From the NCBI GenBank assembly GCA_033391075.1, contig JAWPMV010000001.1, forward strand, positions 1,984,001-2,048,000: a DNA stretch of 64,000 nucleotides, written 5' to 3'. The translations under genes and the position numbers were made by a program. Shown piece by piece: positions 23,100 to 37,806 of the stretch (the first letter of the stretch is position 1; each line of letters starts with the position of its first letter). The notes under the pieces are model-generated. The model did not search any database and was not told the DNA's origin. It saw only the letters and a program-made list of their open reading frames with translations. Source of the stretch: Bacteroidia bacterium. GTDB lineage: Bacteria > Bacteroidota > Bacteroidia > J057.

Positions 23100-23633
23100 T
23101 CATTCCTTTATGCTGATCTGATCTTCAAACAGATCGATCTCATAGTAATAATCTTGTTTCGAAATCATGGGGCCAAATTTCCGACTGACCGAGGTAAAGG
23201 TCAGGGTTTTGCTTTTGGCATGTTCGATAATAAAGAGTTTGATAACCCGACTGTCAGTAATAACTGTATGGCAGGTAACATTCTCATTGTTTATTTCTTT
23301 GATTTCCTCTGAGCCGGTAACCTGCATATATTCCAGGCATTTTCTCTCGACATTCTTCGCCGATTTTTTGTCTGAATAATTGCGGGTTACAGAAGTAGCG
23401 TATAGTTGGCCTTTTTCAAAGACATACTCTACATGCTTATCTTCTTCAAGAACAGCACGCAGGCTACTCATTTTTTGATCTTCTATGATGTCACTGACAT
23501 AGTCTCTGGAATTCAAAAAATCCCGGACTTCAGCCTTGCTTTGACCGAATGGAATGAATAAATGATTCTGGCTATAAGCCTGGTAAAAGAAGAGCAAGGA
23601 AATAATGAGACAGTATAGATGTTTCATGAGCAC
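23100..23633 (-). CDS. Secreted hypothetical protein
   Basis: A 177-aa protein with a signal peptide (about residues 1-21, cleavage after AYSQ) and a small mature domain that I do not recognise. It starts with FIPFGQSKAEVRDFLNSRD, a pattern seen in small Bacteroidota periplasmic proteins in which a short helix follows a 'fGqskxeV' strand. Two cysteines (KCLEY and TCHTV) could form a disulfide. It is a single gene between the terminator and the M23-like lipoprotein. No function assigned. Confidence 0.8.
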   Translation of the reverse strand: MLMKHLYCLIISLLFFYQAYSQNHLFIPFGQSKAEVRDFLNSRDYVSDIIEDQKMSSLRAVLEEDKHVEYVFEKGQLYATSVTRNYSDKKSAKNVERKCLEYMQVTGSEEIKEINNENVTCHTVITDSRVIKLFIIEHAKSKTLTFTSVSRKFGPMISKQDYYYEIDLFEDQISIKE

Positions 23634-23767: not shown

Positions 23768-25033
23768 TTAGTAGGATGATAAGAGCTGCTTATCCAGAGC
23801 TGAAAGGGGAATACGTGCTAAACGTAAGATCAAATTTTCCTTGAATAATTCAAAATCTTTACGCTCGCTTTCCTCTATGGTGTTGTCTTCCTCTTCTAAA
23901 GAAAGCTCTGATCGGTCTACACTCTTGTTTTTACGGAGAAAGTTTAAGGTGATTTTATTTTCACCTACATAACCAATTAAATCTCCTTGCTTGATTCGAT
24001 TTCCTTTTTTGAGGCCCTTGGCAAGTCTGGCAAGCTGGCCGTATTGAGTGGAATAGGGATAGGTATGTCTTATGCTTAATTGATAAGCAGAATTTTTTCG
24101 AATTTTTGTGATCACGCCACCACCCAGGGCATAAACCGGACTGCCTGCCGGAGCTTCGTACTTTGCTTCTTTTTGATCGGATTTTAGTCCTTTGCTCCCT
24201 TTTTTGAAATTATAACGAACGGGTGCTTGAAGGAAAGTGGTTTTTACATTGTTGCCGTGCTGATCGAAGTAGGAAAAATCATTTCCTTCTCCAAAACGGA
24301 AGGCATAATAATCTTCTCCATCATGATGGAACTGCGCTGCAAGAATTTGGGTAATCCCCAGCGAGGCATCATCTACATATTCTTCTTTATAGATTACTTT
24401 GAAATAGTCGCCTTTTTCCAAATGAAAAAGATCTACTGACCAGGCAAAGACATCTTCCAGCATTCGGGCCAGTTGCTGATCCATCTTTTGCTCAGTGATG
24501 GTCTCATAGAGAGAATTTTGGATCACTCCTGCCAATTCCTTTTCCTCTGCATCCGTTTTATTTCTACCCTCATATATCTTGACGCTGTCTCTGAGGTCAA
24601 AAACGACATAATCGGCTGGATTCTTTTCATATATAAAATAGTCTACCTGCTGATCCTCATTTTTCAGCAGAGTAAAGGCATTACCTGCACGCATTCTTCT
24701 TACGTCAAAGATATGCTCGGACTTTTTGGCCAGTTTATCTATGGTTTCAGGCGCCACATTATGGGCACTAAGAATATCCGTGAGGAATTGATTTTCTTCA
24801 AAATTTGCTTGAACAATGGTACGAGAATCCATCTCAATCCCATATTGATTTTGGGACATCCTTTTGAGGCTGGGAGCCGGTAGTCTACCTATGCTGGCTT
24901 TGGGATCATTTTTTTGTGGAGAGTCGCAAGCTGATACCAGAAAGAGGAAGCATAATGAGAGCAGGAAGGAGCCAGTTCTTATCACTAATTTAATTATTTT
25001 TTCTTTGGAAATTTTGATTTGCTTAAAAGGCAC
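23768..25033 (-). CDS. M23 (LytM)-like lipoprotein without zinc ligands
   Basis: A 421-aa lipoprotein (lipobox VSAC, Cys36). The N-terminal half (about 75-265) resembles the OapA/LysM-like region that precedes M23 domains, with RRMRAGNAFTLL and LEKGDYFKVIYKEEYVD. The C-terminal part (about 268-372) has the M23 fold landmarks APAGSPVYALGGGVI and IKQGDLIGYVG, but the HxxxD zinc motif is Q287...K291, the His of YAHL is Q333, and HLH is replaced in ITLNFLR. All metal ligands are gone. This is like the inactive LytM proteins EnvC and NlpD, which activate amidases; that role is inferred. A charged tail of about 50 residues follows. Confidence 0.85.
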   Translation of the reverse strand: MPFKQIKISKEKIIKLVIRTGSFLLSLCFLFLVSACDSPQKNDPKASIGRLPAPSLKRMSQNQYGIEMDSRTIVQANFEENQFLTDILSAHNVAPETIDKLAKKSEHIFDVRRMRAGNAFTLLKNEDQQVDYFIYEKNPADYVVFDLRDSVKIYEGRNKTDAEEKELAGVIQNSLYETITEQKMDQQLARMLEDVFAWSVDLFHLEKGDYFKVIYKEEYVDDASLGITQILAAQFHHDGEDYYAFRFGEGNDFSYFDQHGNNVKTTFLQAPVRYNFKKGSKGLKSDQKEAKYEAPAGSPVYALGGGVITKIRKNSAYQLSIRHTYPYSTQYGQLARLAKGLKKGNRIKQGDLIGYVGENKITLNFLRKNKSVDRSELSLEEEDNTIEESERKDFELFKENLILRLARIPLSALDKQLLSSY

Positions 25034-25107: not shown

Positions 25108-27504
25108 TTATTTCAATATTTTCTTTGAAGCAATCCTACGTCCGCTTTTCAAAATTTGTGCCAGATACAAACCCGATGGCCAGGGGAATTCAAACTGGTA
25201 TTGTTCTCTTCCTTCGTTTAATTTTTGTTCATAAATCTTTCTTCCCTGGATATCGCGAATTTCGAAGCTAAGCTCTCCTCTTGCATCCGCTTGAATCTCA
25301 GAAATATCTATAAAGAGCTGCTCGCTAACCGGGTTGGGATACAACTTGAAAGAAATGGAAGGTAATTCCGGGTCGATAGGAGTGGTATTACTTTCGACTA
25401 CCCTGAATCCATCGAGTCCAGCTTCAACTGCATCCTGATTATCATCTTCGAAATCCTGGGTATAAAGCAAGAATTTGACAGCTGTATTCTGCAGGTCGAA
25501 ATACTTTTGGAAAAAGAATCGACTCTCTTCTGTCCAGGTGGTATCAAAGGGACCAGTATAGCGCTTGATTTCTATAGTATCTATCCCATCAGTTATGGAG
25601 GCAGAGAGAAAGTCATTGCCCGGCTGATTTCTTGTACCTTGTCTCAGGGACCAATTGACAAACCAGTAATGATAATTGATAACGGGTTCATTGTATTCAC
25701 TCAAATCCATCCAGGGAGAACTCAGCAGGACATAACCATTATCAACGTCATAGCCAAAAGCCCCGTCATCCTGATTATCAGTTACGAAAGCCTGATCTCC
25801 GATATCTGTATCCAGATCAAATTCGGGCGCATAAATGTTCCCGTTTCTATAGGTTCCATCCGGCTCAGCGATTTCCCAATCACCTTTGGAAGCTGTGCTG
25901 CTTGTTTCCCATCCAAAATCAAGGGAAAAGTCATCATAAAAACCTTTCTCCAGAAAAAAAGTGATGCTGGTATCATTTTCAGATGGCTCAATAAATGCCT
26001 CTTGTGTGATATAGCCCCATTTGCCAACTATGAGTTGATAGGGATTGATCACAAGTCTTGACTCTTGCAATAGACCATTGGGATCTGTCAGATAATTGAA
26101 CTTCGTTTGACTTCCGTCTGCAATGGCCAGGACTTTCGCTTCGGGGATCAGATTTCCACTTTCCAGTTCCCTCACTTCCACGGTGAGATTTATTCTGTTT
26201 AGGGAGATAAGGTCAACATCCCTGATTGTTAATACCCCATTGCTTAAGGCCACGCTTATTGTGTCCGCTTCATAGCCAAATTTTGAAAAGGCGACTTCAT
26301 AGGTTCCACTTAGCCCAATACCAGTAGCATAGCTACCGTCATCCTGACTTCTGTCTTGTATCTCTTCTCCAATAATTTCGATCTCAACATCATCCAGTAC
26401 AACTCCACTAACCAAATCTCTTACGGTGCCTTCCAGATAACAGCCCCTTACATAGGTAGGAGAAAGAACAAACAATCCGTTTTCAATATCTGAAGCCAAA
26501 ATGAGTCCTGAAGGCAGGAAGGGATAAGCTCCCCAACTTCCATTAAATCCGCCATTGGCGAGGGTATCAGAAGTGTCATAATAGCCCACTTCGATCAGGT
26601 TATTGGGACGACTGGCATCCGCAATATGTATCCCATCTCGATAATAAGAACTGATGAGGTAATCATTGCGCACATGAACATTATGAGGAGCAGCCGAACC
26701 CCCACTTAAGGAGGAGCGAATGCGATCGATTTCTTCTATCTTCCCCGGATCAGAAACATCCCATGCCCGTACATATGCTCCGCCGTACTCATCTGTTGTA
26801 AAGACCACATTGGAGGCATCATTCAACCAGGTATTGTGGGTGAAAGCCCCCTGGTAGCCGGTTTGGCCAATTAATTCAGGTTGAGATTTGTCAGACAGGT
26901 CTACAATGCTGAGTCTCCGATCTGATATCTCTGCAGTATAGGCAATGCTATTTCTTACGTAAACATCATGCACGTATCTCAGGGTATATGCTCCCCTGAA
27001 AATGGGATTCCAGGGGTCTGTGGTCAAATCGAAGATGACCATTCCTCCATTAAAATTATCCGTACCCGTTACATAAAGATATCCTTCATCCACATAGAGA
27101 TTATGTGCTGTGTTGATGGAAGCCAGCATGGTATCTTTGTAAGTTACTTCTCCCGGCAAATTGCTCAGGTCAATGATCCGAATTCCATCTCCGGTTTCAT
27201 TGCTCACAAAGGCAAAATTATCGTGGGTTTTTAAGTCTCTCCAGGCAGATCGTACTCCCGGGAGGAAGTCTCGCTCTACAGGATTGGAAGGGTCAGAGAG
27301 ATCGACTATGGAGACGCCATTCCTTAGCCCGACAAGCGCATACTCATTTCCTGTATCATCAACGTATCCCCAGATGTCATTGAGTTTCTCTGTATAGTTG
27401 ATCTGAGAAACAAAACTCAGGTTTTGATTAGCTGCTTGTGAGAGTGCGTGAATGTAGACGATTAACCATAGACCAAGGAAAATGAATGTCTTTTTCAATG
27501 GCAT
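25108..27504 (-). CDS. Choice-of-anchor-B protein with T9SS sorting domain
   Basis: A 798-aa secreted protein. A signal peptide precedes a propeller of the choice-of-anchor-B type (about residues 30-350) with repeated VSIVDLSDPSNP, IRIIDLSN and HNVHVRNDYL motifs. Two carboxypeptidase-regulatory-like beta domains follow (about 360-520), then a jelly-roll-like region with WEIAEPDGTYRNGN and YVLLSSPWMDLS, and a C-terminal type A T9SS sorting domain starting with YPNPVSEQLF (about 725-798). It is secreted through the outer membrane and probably kept on the surface. Function unknown; the propeller suggests protein or ligand binding. Confidence 0.9.
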   Translation of the reverse strand: MPLKKTFIFLGLWLIVYIHALSQAANQNLSFVSQINYTEKLNDIWGYVDDTGNEYALVGLRNGVSIVDLSDPSNPVERDFLPGVRSAWRDLKTHDNFAFVSNETGDGIRIIDLSNLPGEVTYKDTMLASINTAHNLYVDEGYLYVTGTDNFNGGMVIFDLTTDPWNPIFRGAYTLRYVHDVYVRNSIAYTAEISDRRLSIVDLSDKSQPELIGQTGYQGAFTHNTWLNDASNVVFTTDEYGGAYVRAWDVSDPGKIEEIDRIRSSLSGGSAAPHNVHVRNDYLISSYYRDGIHIADASRPNNLIEVGYYDTSDTLANGGFNGSWGAYPFLPSGLILASDIENGLFVLSPTYVRGCYLEGTVRDLVSGVVLDDVEIEIIGEEIQDRSQDDGSYATGIGLSGTYEVAFSKFGYEADTISVALSNGVLTIRDVDLISLNRINLTVEVRELESGNLIPEAKVLAIADGSQTKFNYLTDPNGLLQESRLVINPYQLIVGKWGYITQEAFIEPSENDTSITFFLEKGFYDDFSLDFGWETSSTASKGDWEIAEPDGTYRNGNIYAPEFDLDTDIGDQAFVTDNQDDGAFGYDVDNGYVLLSSPWMDLSEYNEPVINYHYWFVNWSLRQGTRNQPGNDFLSASITDGIDTIEIKRYTGPFDTTWTEESRFFFQKYFDLQNTAVKFLLYTQDFEDDNQDAVEAGLDGFRVVESNTTPIDPELPSISFKLYPNPVSEQLFIDISEIQADARGELSFEIRDIQGRKIYEQKLNEGREQYQFEFPWPSGLYLAQILKSGRRIASKKILK

Positions 27505-28102: not shown

Positions 28103-29026
28103 ATGAAAAACTCATCAAACACAGTAAAAACAGCATTTTTCCTATTGAATGCAGTAGCATTCCTGTTCATTCTTTCTGCTTCAACTCCCGTCTATGGTCA
28201 AAATCAGACCGGAATAGGTACCTATTATGCGGATAAATATCACGGTCGTAAGACTGCGAGTGGTGAAATTTATGATAAATATGATTTCACAGCTGCACAT
28301 CAGACTCTGCCTTTTGGTACCTGGGTGCGTGTGACTCGTTTAGACAATGGTCGGGTGGTAAATGTGAAGGTCAATGATAGAGGTCCCTGGACAAAAGGGC
28401 GAATAATAGATCTGTCCCGAGCAGCTGCAGAGTCTTTGGATATGATAAGAAGTGGAGAAGTTAGGGTAAGGGTTGAAGTGATTTCCGGGAACGAGAATTC
28501 AGGGGATATAGTAATAGAAGATATTCCTCCCAAACCAGAAGCAAATCCGAATAGAGACCTCAATTCTCTACCTTTAGTTGACTATAACGGAAAACCGGCC
28601 AACGGAAATAGCCGATATACCGTAATAGAGGAAGAAGATTTGGCAGATTATAGAGAAGAGTCAAGAGAATATAGAGAAGAAGCGAGGGAAGAAATTCCTG
28701 AAATTGAAGAGGAAGTGGTGAATCCTGATATTGCAAAATACACCCCCCAGCTTTTTAGCTTCAAGGCCTTTAAGGCACAGGCAGAAGGATTTGGGGTACA
28801 AGTGGGAGCTTTCTTTAATTTTTATAGATTGCTGGAAGCTTTGGATGATTTGAAGAGAAAGGGAATTGAAGACACATTGGTACAAAGCAGCAGTAAGGAC
28901 GGAAAGTCGATGTTCAGGATTATTGTGGGGCCTTATGCAAATAGAGCAGATGCGAATTTAGCGAGAAAGAACCTAGCTAAGAAAAAGTACAAAGGAATCA
29001 CCGTTAACCTCGCTGAGCTATATTGA
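28103..29026 (+). CDS. rlpA: RlpA-family lytic transglycosylase with SPOR domain
   Basis: A 307-aa secreted envelope protein. A signal peptide (about residues 1-32) precedes the double-psi beta-barrel: GIGTYYADKYHGRKTASGE, LPFGTWVRVTRLDNGRVVNVKVNDRGP and IIDLSRAAAESL, which contain the Glu and Asp residues of the active RlpA enzymes. An acidic, Glu/Arg-rich linker follows, and a C-terminal SPOR domain (about 235-307) binds denuded glycan strands at the division site. Cleavage of peptidoglycan by RlpA is known from Pseudomonas; here it is assumed. It sits 23 bp before the unknown secreted 522-aa gene. Confidence 0.92.
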   Translation: MKNSSNTVKTAFFLLNAVAFLFILSASTPVYGQNQTGIGTYYADKYHGRKTASGEIYDKYDFTAAHQTLPFGTWVRVTRLDNGRVVNVKVNDRGPWTKGRIIDLSRAAAESLDMIRSGEVRVRVEVISGNENSGDIVIEDIPPKPEANPNRDLNSLPLVDYNGKPANGNSRYTVIEEEDLADYREESREYREEAREEIPEIEEEVVNPDIAKYTPQLFSFKAFKAQAEGFGVQVGAFFNFYRLLEALDDLKRKGIEDTLVQSSSKDGKSMFRIIVGPYANRADANLARKNLAKKKYKGITVNLAELY

Positions 29027-30761: not shown

Positions 30762-32561
30762 ATGGCCCGCAAACCCGTGGTGTTCTTGTCATTTGCAAAT
30801 GACGAGGATGCATACCTTTCTAATATTGAGTTAGAGGAGGATCAAATTTACCAGAAACTTCAGGATGTCCACGATAATGGATTTATCGAAATCTATAATC
30901 GTGGCAGGTCGAGTATTGAGGATATCTTTTTTCAATTCACTCGCTTCAGAGATCGAATTATAATCTTCCATTATGGAGGACATGCCACAGGTACCCACCT
31001 TCAACTACAAAATCAGGATGCCAATGCTAAAGGCCTAGCCAAACTTATGGGCCAACAGAATGAGCTGAAATTGGTATTTCTAAACGGCTGTTCCACTTTA
31101 TCTCAGGTAAAGGCACTGCAAGACGCTGGAGTTAAGGCCATTATAGCGACCTCTGTTCCCATCAAGGATAATAAAGCTCGAATATTTGCGGTTCAATTTT
31201 ACGATAGTCTGGCAAATGGAGCAAGTCTAGAACAAGCATTCAATGATGCTGTTTCTAAATTGGAAACCATAGAATTGTCAAAAACGGACGAGATCAAAAT
31301 TCATCGGGCGATTGACCTTTCCTTCCTGAAAAAAGGGGAAGAAGAAGATGAGATACCCTGGGGACTATTTGTAAAAAATGATAAAATCCTTAAATGGACA
31401 TTACCCAGTACTAATAAGACCATTTATTCTGATCCTTGGGTAGGGGTGAAAATAGAGAGCCAGGAAGTAAATAAACACATTGTTTTACCAGTCTTTGAAG
31501 CCATCTCAGAAGTTAACCCTGTTTTTGAGGAACAACTGAGTTTTTACCGTATTTCTAAAAATCAGGCGACAATTGATTTACTATTTCGCCAGATGATGGA
31601 TACGATTATTAAGCATTTTCCCTGGCCGATTGGGATAAAATTGCGGACCTTATTCAGCAACCATGACTCCATGATCCGTAAATCTCGTGAAAGGTTAGAA
31701 CAATTGATCAGCACCTACATTAGGCTTAGCAAGTTTTTCCTCTTTTCTCTCCTCTCTCAACTTTGGGACGAGCTACATAAAGCAGAAGGTTTTGACATTC
31801 CGGAAAACTATTTTGATGAGCTTTCAGACTTTTTGGGAATGGATTTGAATGGAGCACTGAATTTTAGTTATGCTGGTTTCCTGGGAAGAATTACGCGGGT
31901 TTTCGATGAAAATCAGGTTACGCCCTTTATCGAACAATTAGAAGGCCTACACTTACGACTTGAGAAAGAAGATGGAATTGCTAAAGCATATTTATACTTC
32001 GAAGAAGTCCGGACCGCCATTTTATCCGGGAACCTTGAAGGGGGGGATCTGGCTCAATTATGTGATAAAGCAGAATATAGTTTAGGAGAATTGCTAAGCT
32101 TTTCGGCTTTTCTGGTTGATTACAAATTGGTTTCGATAAAAGATATTGGTGTCTCCAAACAAAGGAGATCTCTACCACTTTTCAAACATCAAATGGGTGT
32201 ATTGGCAGGGGTTGCAATTGAGGTAATGGAAGGTTCTCCCAAAGATTACAGCAAATTTACTGACAGCCATTCCATTCTTTTGGTAAAGGGGATAGACCAG
32301 GTAGATAAATACGTGAACCTTTCTCCTTTTCTTATGGATGAAAATGCTTATAAGAGCCTCAATGCTCCCAAAATCTACATGTACATGTTTAATCGGGAAT
32401 TTGAGGAGATCTATTATGAGCATGTAGATAATGACACAGTATTTATCAATCCTCAAAGTGCTGGTAAAAAACTGGAGATGAAGTCAAATGAACATGAAAA
32501 TCCTTCTTTAGTAGAAGAACTCAGACTTTTCCGAAAAGATCTATTAAAGCAGATAAGATGA
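30762..32561 (+). CDS. CHAT-domain protease (caspase-like), first gene of a six-gene operon
   Basis: A 599-aa cytoplasmic protein. A CHAT (caspase HetF associated with TPRs) fold fills about residues 1-205, with the catalytic pair His74 in FHYGGHATG and Cys110 in LNGCST at the usual spacing, and the conserved strand AGVKAIIATSVPI after it. No N-terminal TPR domain is present. The C-terminal 390 residues (about 210-599) are mostly helical and of unknown type, ending in a charged helix. CHAT proteases elsewhere act as regulated proteases (Craspase; gasdermin activators). Here the STAND gene starts inside its stop codon (ATGA overlap), implying the two proteins work together. No CRISPR or gasdermin gene is near. 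Confidence 0.9.
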   Translation: MARKPVVFLSFANDEDAYLSNIELEEDQIYQKLQDVHDNGFIEIYNRGRSSIEDIFFQFTRFRDRIIIFHYGGHATGTHLQLQNQDANAKGLAKLMGQQNELKLVFLNGCSTLSQVKALQDAGVKAIIATSVPIKDNKARIFAVQFYDSLANGASLEQAFNDAVSKLETIELSKTDEIKIHRAIDLSFLKKGEEEDEIPWGLFVKNDKILKWTLPSTNKTIYSDPWVGVKIESQEVNKHIVLPVFEAISEVNPVFEEQLSFYRISKNQATIDLLFRQMMDTIIKHFPWPIGIKLRTLFSNHDSMIRKSRERLEQLISTYIRLSKFFLFSLLSQLWDELHKAEGFDIPENYFDELSDFLGMDLNGALNFSYAGFLGRITRVFDENQVTPFIEQLEGLHLRLEKEDGIAKAYLYFEEVRTAILSGNLEGGDLAQLCDKAEYSLGELLSFSAFLVDYKLVSIKDIGVSKQRRSLPLFKHQMGVLAGVAIEVMEGSPKDYSKFTDSHSILLVKGIDQVDKYVNLSPFLMDENAYKSLNAPKIYMYMFNREFEEIYYEHVDNDTVFINPQSAGKKLEMKSNEHENPSLVEELRLFRKDLLKQIR

Positions 32562-33613
32562 GCAATCCGCAGAGTCCATTTAAGTTTTTGGATGCATATG
32601 GGAAAGATGAAATGCATTCCTTTTTTGGTAGGGACCAGGAAATTGAAGCTTTGTATTCGCTGGTTTTTCAAGGGAAATTGATTCTCTTGTATGGAGCCAG
32701 TGGAGTAGGTAAAACCAGCCTGATTCAGTGCGGTCTTGCCAATAAATTTCACCCCACCCAATGGCAGGAGCTCTTTATCAGGCGCAGGGATAATATCAAC
32801 GGATCTATACGAGAAGTTGTGAATAAGGCGATTGGTGAAAGTAATCCAAAAGGTCAGACTGAAATACCAGAAGATTTGCACGATTCTCTTCATCTGCTCT
32901 ACCTCTACAATTTTAAACCTATTTACCTCATCTTCGACCAATTTGAAGAGCTCTTCATATTTGGAACAGAAGAAGAGCAGATACAATTCTTTGAATTTGT
33001 AAAAAAGATTCTTTCTTCGGAACTCTCTTGCAAAATTCTTCTTTCTATGCGGGAAGAATACCTTGCTCATCTTTCCGAATTCGAAAAAATAGTCCCCAGT
33101 ATTTTTGACCACAGATTTCGTGTGGAACGGATGAACCGGAAAAATCTTTCTGAGGTGATTCAAAAAACAGCAGACTTATACGAAATAGAGATTCCCAAAG
33201 CCGAATCCGTTATCGATCAGATGCTGGAAAACCTTAGCGATAAAAGAGGAGTGGATTTGACGAATCTTCAGGTGTATATGGACCGCCTGTATCGGGAAGA
33301 TCAGAAAAGAGAATCATTTCGAAGAGAAGGCCCCAGGTTTGACAAGCAACTTATCAATTCTGTGGGAGAACTTAAAGATGTAATGGGTTCATTCCTTGAG
33401 GAACAGTTGGGCATATTAGAATCTGACTTAGGCAAAAAGGATATCCCCTTAGATATACTTTTTTCTCTGGTCTCGGACGAAGCCACAAAGCGAAGCATTG
33501 AGATCGATGATATTAAAGAATCTTTGTACAGAAGGAAAAATATAAGCGCAGAAGATATCGACTACTGCATCCAACGATTTTTTGAGTTAAGAATCTTCAA
33601 AGAGGTTAACTGA
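32558..33613 (+). CDS. STAND-type NTPase (nSTAND1-like)
   Basis: A 351-aa P-loop NTPase. FFGRDQEIEAL (about 22-32) opens the STAND NTPase, Walker A is GASGVGKTS (46-54), Walker B is YLIFDQFEELF (123-133) with the acidic residues typical of nSTAND1. Helical and winged-helix-like segments fill the C-terminal half (about 190-351). STAND proteins act as switches that assemble when triggered. The gene stops just where the usual fused protein would go on into an E-L-A-H-D-S-L-A segment; that segment begins the next gene instead (TGATG overlap). The CHAT protease is the likely client or effector. Confidence 0.9.
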   Translation: MSNPQSPFKFLDAYGKDEMHSFFGRDQEIEALYSLVFQGKLILLYGASGVGKTSLIQCGLANKFHPTQWQELFIRRRDNINGSIREVVNKAIGESNPKGQTEIPEDLHDSLHLLYLYNFKPIYLIFDQFEELFIFGTEEEQIQFFEFVKKILSSELSCKILLSMREEYLAHLSEFEKIVPSIFDHRFRVERMNRKNLSEVIQKTADLYEIEIPKAESVIDQMLENLSDKRGVDLTNLQVYMDRLYREDQKRESFRREGPRFDKQLINSVGELKDVMGSFLEEQLGILESDLGKKDIPLDILFSLVSDEATKRSIEIDDIKESLYRRKNISAEDIDYCIQRFFELRIFKEVN

Positions 33614-35490
33614 TGAAAGTAGAACTTGCTCATGATTCACTGGCCTTAAAAATTTATGATAAGGTTTCTGCGGATGAAAAGACCCTGCGTAAAGTGGAAA
33701 AATTCATCTCAGATAGCTATGCCTATTATAAGTCTCGAGGAGCACTTTTGACTAAGGAGGATTTTGAATATATAAATCCCTATCTCGAAAAGATTGATAT
33801 TTCCCGGGATGAGCATGACTTTATTTTGAAAAGCCGCAGGTCTCTGAGGAGGAAAAGGAATGCACTTATCATGCTGATCTCAGCTATCTTTTTTATAGTC
33901 AGTGCAACTGCTGTTTATGCTTTGGTACAAAAAAACAATGCAGAAAACAGTAAAGAACTTGCTATCCAAAACGAAATAAAAGCGAAGGAGAATGAAAAAA
34001 GAGCAGAAGCTAAGGCTGTAGAAGCATTGGAGGAAAAGGCCCGGGCCCTGAAGCAAAAGAACCGAGCAGACTCCCTACGTGGCATTGCAGAGATTGAGAA
34101 AAAGAATGCACAAACAAATTTGGCAAGGGCAAAACTAGCAGAACAAAAGGCTATAGATAGTACCAGAGCAGCCATAATTGCACGAGCAGATGCAGATAGT
34201 GCTCGTGCCGATGAATATGTTGCCAAACTAGCAGCACAGAAAGCATTGAGGGCAGCGCAGGAAGAAAAGAATAAGGCGGATATCGCTTACAAAAGAACCT
34301 TAATCCAATACCTGGCAGCTAAGTCTCTTCAAATAAAGGATACGACTTTAAAGGCTTTGCTTGCATTGCAAGCGTATACGTTTTTGAAAGATGTCCAACC
34401 CAATTACCATGATCCTTCGGTTTATACGGGTCTATATCAGGCCTCAAAAAGCCTGCTTGGTCCCGAATTCAATGAATTCATAGATAAATCAAAAGCTCAT
34501 AAAGGAGCTGTACGGTCCATGCTTTTTAATAAAGATGGCAAAATCCTGTACTCTACAGGAAGTGATGGTTCTGTTTTAGAATGGAAACTAAAAGAATTAG
34601 GAGAAACGGTCGCGCCAGAAATACTTGATAAGGATGCGGCTGTGAATCGATCCATGAGTCCTGATAAAACCCAAATTATGGTGAGTCGGGGACCAGGCCC
34701 CAAAGTAGAGATCAATAAGAGCGGAACTGCCAAGTGGACGCCTGACCTGACTAATCCGGAAATTATTGATCTTGGCCTGGATAGCACACAGTATTTAGCG
34801 GGTAATTCTCCTGAAATTAGTTTCTTCAGCCTACAGGGGACCAATCGCTTGTTCTTTATTAAAGAGAACAGTTTGCCAAAGGGACACTTTCTCAGAAATA
34901 GCCGGGAATGGTTGCTCGGACTCAACTACAAATCTGAACTTTTGCTCTGGAACCTGGAAGAAGAAACTTTTTCAGAAATTCCATCACAGGATTCTCTAGG
35001 TAGCCAAATTTTTTCCCTGGCTTTAAACATGAAGGGAGAAACCCTTGCAGTCGGAGACGAAAAAGGCACTGTCTGGATTTGGCAAATACAAGAAGGCGAT
35101 GATGCAAATTCCTTGAAAAGAAGAGGAATAGAGCTAAGTGGGCACAAAGCACGGGTCAGCGATCTTGAATTTAATATTAATAATCAATTGGCTTCTTCCA
35201 GTTATGATGGAAGCATTCAGGTATGGGATTTAAGTTCCAGTGATTTTCAAGGTAAGTTACCCTTGATTCTGAGCGACCATGACAATTGGATCATGGATAT
35301 TGTCTTTTCTCCAAATGGCCAAGAATTGATCTCTGGAAGTAGAGAAGGCGAAATAAAAAGATGGCCCATAGAGCTTCAGAAGTTATCAGAATTAATAGGC
35401 GAGCGTTTGGAAAGAGAGTTGACTGCCGAAGAATGGAAATTATACATTGGTAGTGAAATCTCACAAACTAAGAATTCTCAAATCAATTAG
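33613..35490 (+). CDS. Single-span membrane protein with coiled coil and WD40 propeller
   Basis: A 625-aa protein. Residues 1-75 continue the STAND winged-helix end (VELAHDSLALKIY), followed by a basic stretch (KSRRSLRRKRN, 73-83) and one TM segment (about 84-105). By the positive-inside rule the first part is cytoplasmic and the rest periplasmic. An Ala/Lys/Glu-rich coiled coil spans about 107-225, then a helical linker, and WD40-like repeats from about 290 to 600 (HKGAVRSMLFNKDG, GSDGSVLEWKL, SYDGSIQVWDL, GSREGEIKRWPI) as a periplasmic propeller. It starts on the ATG that overlaps the STAND stop codon, and ends 2 bp before the TPR-barrel gene. Confidence 0.88.
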   Translation: MKVELAHDSLALKIYDKVSADEKTLRKVEKFISDSYAYYKSRGALLTKEDFEYINPYLEKIDISRDEHDFILKSRRSLRRKRNALIMLISAIFFIVSATAVYALVQKNNAENSKELAIQNEIKAKENEKRAEAKAVEALEEKARALKQKNRADSLRGIAEIEKKNAQTNLARAKLAEQKAIDSTRAAIIARADADSARADEYVAKLAAQKALRAAQEEKNKADIAYKRTLIQYLAAKSLQIKDTTLKALLALQAYTFLKDVQPNYHDPSVYTGLYQASKSLLGPEFNEFIDKSKAHKGAVRSMLFNKDGKILYSTGSDGSVLEWKLKELGETVAPEILDKDAAVNRSMSPDKTQIMVSRGPGPKVEINKSGTAKWTPDLTNPEIIDLGLDSTQYLAGNSPEISFFSLQGTNRLFFIKENSLPKGHFLRNSREWLLGLNYKSELLLWNLEEETFSEIPSQDSLGSQIFSLALNMKGETLAVGDEKGTVWIWQIQEGDDANSLKRRGIELSGHKARVSDLEFNINNQLASSSYDGSIQVWDLSSSDFQGKLPLILSDHDNWIMDIVFSPNGQELISGSREGEIKRWPIELQKLSELIGERLERELTAEEWKLYIGSEISQTKNSQIN

Positions 35491-35492
35491 CC

Positions 35493-36596
35493 ATGAAAAA
35501 CTTAATTGATTATAAGTCCAGGATTATTTCAGCTATTACTGTAATTCTCTTGTGGGTTTTTCACACTGGCACAATGCATAGCCAAAACTGCAATTCGCAA
35601 CTTGAGCGAGCGGAAAGACTTTTTCAGCAAGGTTATCCTATACAAGCAGCTCACATACTGGAACCTTGTATAGATCGCTTAAACGATGAAAACATTGTAA
35701 GAGGTCTCAGGCTGTTAACCATTATTTATTTACTTGAAGACAAGTCAAGAGCAGATACAAGTTTTCAGAAGTTACTGGATATAGATCCTGAATTTAGATT
35801 GGATCGCTACAAAGGAACAGATCCCCCCGAGTTGATTTATCTGTATGATAATTTTAGGACACGGCCCGTTCTTTTTGTAGGAGCAACAGCTGGTGGAGGG
35901 AATAGTTACTTTTTATCTCAACAGACTTATTCAGTAGATAATGCCCTTTTATCCAATAAGGAGTATAATCCAGAAAACATCTTATACCTGGGGTTACAAA
36001 TTAGTAAACCTCTATTGCATCGAAATCTTCGATGGGGAATAGGATTCTTTTATTCACAGGCTAATTATAGTCTGGAGCATTCCCAAAAACTTCTGGGAGA
36101 TGCTGAACAAAGAGATGTATTTAAATTGGAGTTCACAGAAAAGCAGCGCCTATTATCTATTCCAGTATTTCTTGATTATAACTTTGATACCTGGAGTGAG
36201 AACAACTACGATCGCAAAACCTGGATACCACATTTATTTGTGGGAGTGTCAGGTATTCTTGTCCAAAGCGCAGAAATTTTTAACATCAGTAGATCAAATC
36301 AGCTGGGAGGCATAGAAAACGGGCTGGAAAATTCGGACCTCAATCCTCAACGTTCTGACTGGAATTCCGAAATCTTTCTGGGTTTTGGGCTAAAACGAAA
36401 AATCCGGAGAAACTACTTTGCCGTCGATTTAAGGTATGGTAGATGGTTGCAAAATTCCGTCACTCCCAACAATAGATATGGTAATCAGGAGCTTGTGTTT
36501 CGATATGGACATGTGGATGATGACTTCACTTTTCAAAGCTTGAGCCTAATGTTTTCTTACGAAAGAGCTATCTATTCACACAAGAGAATCAAATAA
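35493..36596 (+). CDS. TPR plus outer-membrane beta-barrel protein
   Basis: A 367-aa protein. Signal peptide about residues 1-30 (cleavage near MHSQN), a TPR-like helical region about 32-120 (SQLERAERLFQQGYPIQAAHILEPC, then the segment LLDIDPEFRLD... PPELIYLYDNFRT), then about 245 residues of alternating hydrophobic strands with aromatic caps that fit an outer-membrane barrel, ending SYERAIYSHKRIK. The TPR part should face the periplasm. Its position 2 bp after the WD40 gene and 1 bp before the lipoprotein gene puts it in the same operon, so it may contact the WD40 propeller across the periplasm. Its exact family is not known to me. Confidence 0.8.
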   Translation: MKNLIDYKSRIISAITVILLWVFHTGTMHSQNCNSQLERAERLFQQGYPIQAAHILEPCIDRLNDENIVRGLRLLTIIYLLEDKSRADTSFQKLLDIDPEFRLDRYKGTDPPELIYLYDNFRTRPVLFVGATAGGGNSYFLSQQTYSVDNALLSNKEYNPENILYLGLQISKPLLHRNLRWGIGFFYSQANYSLEHSQKLLGDAEQRDVFKLEFTEKQRLLSIPVFLDYNFDTWSENNYDRKTWIPHLFVGVSGILVQSAEIFNISRSNQLGGIENGLENSDLNPQRSDWNSEIFLGFGLKRKIRRNYFAVDLRYGRWLQNSVTPNNRYGNQELVFRYGHVDDDFTFQSLSLMFSYERAIYSHKRIK

Positions 36597-36597
36597 T

Positions 36598-37806
36598 ATG
36601 CGAACAGTTTTTCTATATAGTCTGGCTATTTTGGGCATTTTTTATGCTTCTTGTGAAGAAGTCAGAAAGCTTGGGCCAAATCCTGAGGAGGTATTCGTGA
36701 AATATTATGGGGGAGGGTATGATCAATCTGCAGTGGATTTAGAAATCGAAGAAAATGGGTTTGTCATTCTGGGTAATACGAGGCTTAATAGTCTCTCAGA
36801 AACCCCAGAACCTATTCTGATTTGGACCGATAAAGGAGGAAATGAGCTTACTAGTCGAAAACTTGCTTCTCCCTTAGCTGTCGATTTCGTTTTGTCCTCT
36901 GCCTTGAGAGTAAAAGATGATAATTACTTTATCGCCGGGACTGCATACAAAGGAGATGATAGGGATGTTTGGGTTTCCGTCCAAAATCGAGAAGGTAACC
37001 CTACTCTGGCAAACGACTTTATTTTCGGTACGGATGATTACCTTGAGGAGGCAGCCGATGTACTCATATTAGAGGACAATTCATTTCTTATCCTAGGCTC
37101 AACAACTAATATTGATGAAAATAAATGGAAGGGAGTTGTTGATGCAAATGACTCTACAGATATACTTTTACTTAAAGTAAATAGTCAAGGTAACTTGCTT
37201 TGGAGGAAGAGACTTGGATATGGAGGAAAAGATGTGGGTGTTAAAATTGAAAAAATGGAGAATGGAAATTTTGCCATTCTTGGGAATAGTAAAATAGGGA
37301 CGGATTTTGAAATCTTCATTGCACTGTTAAATCCAGATGGAAATGTGTATAACACTAGAAATCTAAAGCCCGGACGGCAAAACAAAGCCTTGGGACTAGA
37401 TTATAAAAATGGACTTCTTTCCCTCAGTGGTTCTGCAGATGGAGTTGCATACCTGGAAAGCCTGGATCAAAGCTTAAATACACAGTCAGAATTTTCAGCC
37501 AATAGCATTTTTTCTACTGAAATATCTTCAGAAATAAATTCGGTTATATCAACAGAAGAAGGAACCTTATTGATAACTGCTACCTGGAGTAAGGAGAACA
37601 GAGAAAAAGATGCTTCAGTTTTGTTGCTTGGTGCAAATGGGAAAAAAATTTGGCAGGACCCACTTTTTTTTGGTTCTGAAGAAGATGATCAAAGTGTGAT
37701 GGCTCTTCCTCTGGATCAAGATAAATATTTGCTGTTGGGAAATTTTAAATTCGGCTCAAATACTATGATGGGATTACTGAAAATTTCAGAGATAGGACTT
37801 AAATAA
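36598..37806 (+). CDS. Lipoprotein with beta-propeller-like repeats
   Basis: A 402-aa lipoprotein (lipobox YASC, Cys19). The mature part has six or so repeats with the pattern 'FxVxGxTxS...' (for example GFVILGNTRLNS, NSFLILGSTTNIDENK, GNFAILGNSKIG, KYLLLGNFKFG), which looks like a propeller of the kind found in Bacteroidota surface proteins with YGG-type motifs at the beginning (KYYGGGYDQSA). No enzyme motif is visible. It lies one base after the TPR-barrel gene and 43 bp before the beta-helix gene. It probably sits in the outer membrane with those two. Confidence 0.8.
   Translation: MRTVFLYSLAILGIFYASCEEVRKLGPNPEEVFVKYYGGGYDQSAVDLEIEENGFVILGNTRLNSLSETPEPILIWTDKGGNELTSRKLASPLAVDFVLSSALRVKDDNYFIAGTAYKGDDRDVWVSVQNREGNPTLANDFIFGTDDYLEEAADVLILEDNSFLILGSTTNIDENKWKGVVDANDSTDILLLKVNSQGNLLWRKRLGYGGKDVGVKIEKMENGNFAILGNSKIGTDFEIFIALLNPDGNVYNTRNLKPGRQNKALGLDYKNGLLSLSGSADGVAYLESLDQSLNTQSEFSANSIFSTEISSEINSVISTEEGTLLITATWSKENREKDASVLLLGANGKKIWQDPLFFGSEEDDQSVMALPLDQDKYLLLGNFKFGSNTMMGLLKISEIGLK

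Follow-up and report, generated by a model that had tools for sequence, protein, structure and literature searches.

A predicted Csd3/ShyA-type lipoprotein of Bacteroidia without the zinc site of its M23 domain and with its gene retained

The window, a stretch of 64,000 nucleotides of a Bacteroidia genome (GCA_033391075.1, contig JAWPMV010000001.1, positions 1,984,001 to 2,048,000), carries on its minus strand the gene of a degenerate M23 lipoprotein, located between a gene for a secreted-looking protein and a larger gene with LVIVD repeats. These genes and the parts of the central one are the following; the last line, a paralog found elsewhere in the same genome, is in genome coordinates.

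23768..25033, minus strand: gene of the degenerate Csd3/ShyA-type M23 lipoprotein (421 aa, GTG start)
24926..24937, minus strand: lipobox VSAC with the predicted lipidated Cys36, preceded by a signal sequence
24854..24880, minus strand: PAPxLKRMS-type motif behind the lipid anchor (from the alignment column table)
24554..24856, minus strand: domain 1 (residues 60-160), counterpart of inhibitory domain 1 of Csd3/ShyA
24197..24547, minus strand: domain 2 (residues 163-279), Pfam Csd3_N2 (PF19425), 52.8 bits with a cut-off of 27
23954..24163, minus strand: degenerate M23/LytM domain (residues 291-360), Pfam Peptidase_M23 (PF01551), 45.8 bits with a cut-off of 28.7
24173..24175, minus strand: Gln287, replacing the His of HxxxD in the alignment
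24161..24163, minus strand: Lys291, replacing the Asp of HxxxD in the alignment
24035..24037, minus strand: Gln333, replacing the catalytic His in the alignment
23100..23633, minus strand: 177-aa secreted-looking protein, next gene downstream after a gap of 134 bp
25108..27504, minus strand: upstream gene, 798 aa, with LVIVD repeats, a carboxypeptidase-regulatory-like domain and a Por secretion tail
C1:2942924-2944225: paralog B (L073), with the same architecture and a lipobox, 33% identical to the window protein

An earlier note on this DNA, made from the letters and their open reading frames, had placed the protein at 23768-25033 without naming a strand. Its frame of 421 aa stands, and it is read on the minus strand, from 25033 down to 23768 (C1:2007771-2009033 in the coordinates of the genome, G000); the plus strand offers only a 136-aa frame over the same interval. 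Hereafter A designates the window protein and its orthologs in the family, B the paralog of HLD type, and dead or live a protein whose catalytic site is lost or intact. The lipobox column holds Cys in all seven dead proteins, and likewise in three live A, three proteins of the genus g9 and four B proteins. Live and dead A orthologs alike share the form of the PAPxLKRMS-type motif, which was not seen in B; a strict version of the pattern missed L019, L023 and L035, because the first P differs there. A frameshift or assembly error behind the degenerate site was rejected, since six orthologs in other genera are also degenerate; the other two frames of the same strand, inspected by eye, have no HxxxD/HxH block.

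The N-terminal half had been described as OapA-like, a likeness that was not recovered: Pfam gave no OapA match at E<=1, and this half is of the Csd3/ShyA/NMB0315 type. Domain 1 reached 15.0 bits with the Pfam family NMB0315_dom_I, against a cut-off of 27, and the region is spanned by profile alignments to NMB0315 and ShyA. Among NCBIfam models the nearest were ShyC, MepM and ShyA, with scores under their equivalog cut-offs (94.6 of 700, 83.7 of 341 and 53.4 of 700, respectively), and the nearest solved proteins were a gonococcal M23 protein, NMB0315, ShyA and Csd3. The profile matches to NMB0315 and ShyA cover nearly the full length. The one to Csd3 begins behind domain 1, and for this reason no counterpart of Glu74, the zinc-capping residue of Csd3 domain 1, could be assigned in the window protein. 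An AlphaFold model built from four sequences (mean pLDDT 69) gave, over residues 65-418, Foldseek E values down to 2e-19 and VIA-align Z scores of 15-17, with 16.9 over 319 residues for the open form of ShyA, 15.5 for NMB0315 and 15.1 for Csd3. Many M23 structures, including the LytM domains of EnvC and DipM, were matched at Z ~12, and no long helix appeared in the model besides the signal helix and the C-terminal helices. As modelled, the three-domain fold of Csd3/ShyA is kept in the window protein.

What has disappeared is the zinc site. MAFFT alignment of the window protein with 60 homologs places Gln287, Lys291, Gln333, Lys360 and Thr362 where the others have the five residues of HxxxD, H and HxH, so that none of the five catalytic positions is kept. 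The loss of all zinc ligands had been proposed in the earlier note, with Gln287, Lys291 and Gln333 numbered as here, and an alignment had been suggested as the check, with conserved ligands elsewhere as the refuting outcome; the alignment confirms the loss. The neighbouring motifs called intact are indeed present (EAPAGSPVYA and IKQGDLIGYVG) and, taking alignment, Pfam Peptidase_M23 match and lipobox together, the description as a degenerate M23 lipoprotein with no zinc site was correct. The loop just before HxxxD, which forms a wall of the active site in Csd3 (loop I, in the portion of PMC4356371 that deals with it), is shorter by 4-9 residues in six of the seven dead orthologs, the window protein being nine residues shorter. 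Because the zinc site is missing, we infer that peptidoglycan DD-endopeptidase activity is absent.

The live proteins have a peculiarity of their own at the third zinc-ligand position. Among 129 of them (e.g. L020, L017, L027-L046) this residue is Cys in 113 and Asp in 16 (46 and 8 in the first set, 67 and 8 in the second) and His in none. The other M23 proteins of the genome (L001, L003-L006) keep HLH, as do Csd3 and NMB0315. From these alignments, the Cys or Asp seems to reflect the exchange of a zinc ligand throughout the class, of which we found no report in the open-licence literature.

To follow the loss across the family we used 61 sequences, namely the query, its relatives at E of 1e-20 or better in the searched genomes, and two loci from a contig search with the single window protein, which had found only three; the N-terminal fragment G062:C84 was left out. 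The positions H, D, H and H are intact in 54 sequences and lost in seven, the window protein and its orthologs in G003, G004, G005, G006, G007 and G009, which come from seven different genera of a single family and make up 7 of the 20 sequences of that family. Their reading frames, 414-464 aa long, are all open. Of the 28 cells that these four positions make up in the dead proteins, 8 keep the residue: no protein has the first His, two have the Asp, five the catalytic His and one the first His of HxH. The third ligand is lost in 7/7. A search with only the N-terminal part, covering 395 genomes of the class, matched 152 of them at 1e-15; from the upper part of this match list another 75 proteins were inspected, and all were intact. 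Outside the family, therefore, none of the 116 homologs examined (41 from the first set and these 75) is dead.

The nearest orthologs of the dead group, in G001, G002 and G010, keep the site (live A). In the whole-protein tree, for which three fragments shorter than 300 aa were set aside, the seven dead proteins form one group (100/99), next to which come live A and then the genus g9 (G008, G011, G012). The tree built without the M23 domain needs a single change (92/97), but in it the three live g9 proteins share an unresolved fork with the dead ones. The RpoB tree comprises 12 of the 13 family genomes (G011 is missing and G009 is only 21% filled); it places the seven dead-A genomes together (89/92, below the starred level), followed by G001, then G002 with G010, then g9. 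Several independent losses are not favoured by the whole-protein and RpoB trees, while the tree lacking M23 has live g9 in the fork of the dead proteins. The simplest reading of these phylogenies would be one ancestral loss transmitted by vertical descent, after which the remaining ligand positions drifted separately. The initial loss was perhaps that of the first His and of the third ligand, neither of which is left in any of the seven.

A way to see which parts of the protein still matter is to compare the domains of dead and live proteins. Of the columns common to at least 90% of the live proteins, those in the N-terminal part are kept by the dead ones in 77 of 84 cells, those of M23, catalytic positions excluded, in 139 of 301. 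Among live pairs M23 is the domain with the highest mean identity (77% for the three live A, 72% for B, 68% elsewhere); among dead pairs it has the lowest, 30%, domain 1 having 49% and domain 2 41%. In the same four genomes (six pairs), the mean identities of domain 1, domain 2 and M23 were ~44, 37 and 31% for dead A and ~48, 68 and 73% for live B. Domain 1 is thus held in dead A about as well as in live B (44 vs. 48% in these species-matched pairs). Agreement at codon positions 1, 2 and 3 in the dead proteins was 58, 72 and 33% for domain 1 and 45, 54 and 27% for M23, and in every domain the first two positions are conserved over the third. Judged by codon positions, the gene is kept under purifying selection, and the M23 remnant, given its 45, 54 and 27%, is not neutral either. 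In the alignments, domain 1 and the PAPxLKRMS motif close to the anchor are conserved most, and the former active site is eroded.

The genome has other M23 proteins, among them paralog B. Unlike the window protein, B has its catalytic residues intact (its third ligand is Asp) and M23 is its best-conserved part. It lies ~0.93 Mb from the window gene (C1:2942924 vs. C1:2007771), beside a LysM-domain gene; frames with similar starts adjoin B in G003, G006 and G007. We found B in five of the seven dead-A genomes (G000, G003, G006, G007 and G009) and in none of the six live-A ones. G004 and G005, whose assemblies are 91% and 90% complete and fragmented into more than 1000 contigs each, yielded no B, and a second match in G004 (L053) was rejected as one because in the whole-protein tree it clusters with L055, on long branches. 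A rule by which A dies only where B is present was left as a correlation, B not having been found in those two genomes. G075 has an HLD-type paralog and a copy of the other type, both intact, so that coexistence with an HLD-type copy does not by itself kill the other. Another degenerate M23 protein of G000, L009 (431 aa), has a long N-terminal part that is probably helical (by eye). Other frames were also noticed by eye: L012 (G000:C1:4541319-4541615) belongs to a 1011-aa frame combining an M23 domain with what appear to be phosphotransferase-type and class III aminotransferase-type domains, and in L001 (G000:C1:6971051) and L004 (G000:C5:360097) the M23 domain stands in one frame behind N-termini like BlaR1/M56 membrane metallopeptidases.

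Strong orthologs of the 177-aa downstream neighbour (E no higher than 2e-42) occur in the seven dead-A genomes and in G001, and in each of these eight the gene adjoins A on the same strand. The gap between the two genes is ~134-410 bp across the eight loci, long for a simple operon. Pfam gave a 17-bit match below the cut-off for this protein, and PDB no fold match at E<=0.001. Since G001, a live-A genome, also has the neighbour, its arrival seems, from this distribution, to have preceded the loss of catalysis. On the upstream side, a homolog of the LVIVD-repeat gene adjoins A also in G003, G004 and G007; beside the dead A of G003, L068:2065-6850 holds two tandem overlapping frames that resemble it. 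Farther away, an RlpA-type protein (DPBB and SPOR domains) is encoded at 28103-29026 of the window on the plus strand, ~3 kb from the gene, with a homolog at a like distance in G004 only among the loci compared. A run of plus-strand genes occupies 30762-37806, and the start of its first protein resembles a CHAT-type caspase-like domain (by eye).

As far as its sequence tells, the window protein is a former peptidoglycan endopeptidase of the Csd3/ShyA/MepM type with a lipobox. With the zinc site gone and the gene retained, we infer a non-catalytic role, and we consider it reasonably probable that this is a lipid-tethered protein that binds or regulates some component of the machinery for cell-wall hydrolysis. 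Catalysis being lost, it would act through domains 1 and 2, and the lipid anchor would tether the protein where it holds or regulates its client. The likeliest candidates for that client would be paralog B, as a live endopeptidase of like type, the 177-aa secreted neighbour, or both; unless it was missed in G004 and G005, B would not be an obligatory one, as it was not found there. Domain 1 of Csd3 covers that protein's own active site. In the dead proteins domain 1 stays though its cleft has decayed, so it should have another job, such as binding a partner or peptidoglycan. A tentative and rather doubtful version is that a self-inhibited endopeptidase has become a stand-alone inhibitor, with domain 1 capping live endopeptidases such as B in trans; a signal, perhaps conveyed by the 177-aa neighbour, would then release the tethered domain.

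Two known ways of using a degenerate LytM domain have to be weighed against this. The window protein could activate amidases as EnvC, NlpD and ActS do, its degenerate LytM groove binding an N-acetylmuramoyl-L-alanine amidase and relieving autoinhibition. The genome has four Amidase_3 genes (C1:2283987-2284556, 2432253-2432906, 2639236-2639868 and 5824655-5825095), and NlpD and ActS combine a degenerate M23 domain with a lipoprotein, as here. The earlier note, which saw the pattern of the EnvC/NlpD regulators, had held a lipoprotein to be unusual among them; in the passages of PMC8360153 that cover them, however, NlpD and ActS are outer-membrane lipoproteins. It had also proposed a search for amidase linkage, which we ran: none of the four genes is linked to C1:2007771-2009033. 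There is, moreover, no LysM match at E<=1 in Pfam, and the structural match to EnvC and DipM is not specific, because many active M23 domains also reach Z ~12. M23 is the least conserved part, with its loop shortened in 6/7. The residues around the degenerate site of EnvC are needed for amidase activation (PMC5053510, in its part on EnvC), and the reading is weaker for it, since the part that EnvC uses is the one eroded here. L009 is the better EnvC candidate in this genome. The likeness to these regulators is thus left unsupported, and an amidase activator appears unlikely to us. No likelier is a pseudo-partner of the Csd2 kind, whose degenerate LytM domain would pair with that of a live M23 protein as a heterodimer, stabilising or positioning the live partner. 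The Csd1-Csd2 pair of Helicobacter pylori, an active and a degenerate M23 protein, is a solved precedent (PMC5053510 and PMC9662197, in what they give on this pair), and a live paralog exists in 5/7 genomes; that paralog is not adjacent, however, and it is precisely the M23 domain, not the rest, that is eroded here.

The remaining alternatives concern the loss itself. The fast divergence of M23 (30% mean identity among dead orthologs) could be taken as a sign of a decaying pseudogene or of a sequencing artefact, but 7/7 frames of 414-464 aa are open, codon positions 1 and 2 stand far above 3 in all domains, the conserved N-terminal positions are kept (77/84 cells) and no M23 block is hidden in other frames. 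The pseudogene was rejected on the open frames and codon-position bias, and we regard either version as very improbable. An enzyme still active through a relocated or different catalytic site is hardly credible: some orthologs (G004, G009) still carry the Asp and one or two of the His, but there is nothing of the kind in the window protein, with 0/5 catalytic positions and a loop nine residues shorter before HxxxD. We return, then, to the tethered, non-catalytic binding or regulating protein as the preferred reading.

Degenerate M23 proteins are familiar from the literature (PMC9662197, PMC5053510 and PMC8416486, in the parts devoted to them), and their known roles are those of amidase activators and of partners in shape complexes. 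A degenerate protein of the Csd3/ShyA type, with an eroding catalytic domain and the inhibitory domain kept, was not found reported in the open-licence literature. The family provides a series of ready-made controls, with A live and no neighbour (G002, G010, g9), live with the neighbour (G001) and dead with the neighbour (seven genera). These address the role of the non-catalytic part of Csd3/ShyA-type enzymes and whether domain 1 works in trans.

In its three-domain architecture the window protein is the same as Csd3 of H. pylori, ShyA of Vibrio cholerae, NMB0315 of Neisseria meningitidis and MepM of Escherichia coli. All four are zinc endopeptidases that carry HxxxD, H and HxH; in the window protein the five residues are absent and the active-site loop is shortened. 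With EnvC, NlpD and ActS it shares the degenerate LytM domain, and with the latter two, as far as the literature cited above describes them, the lipoprotein nature; yet neither the coiled coil of EnvC nor the LysM domain of NlpD and ActS is seen in it (Pfam, model), its conservation lies in the N-terminal domains and not in LytM, and it has no amidase link. Csd2 is the other parallel, a degenerate M23 protein beside a live relative, as in this genome. Csd1 and Csd2 dimerise in a solved complex of their C-terminal parts (PMC5053510, in its section on the complex), whereas here M23 is what erodes and the live paralog lies ~0.93 Mb off.
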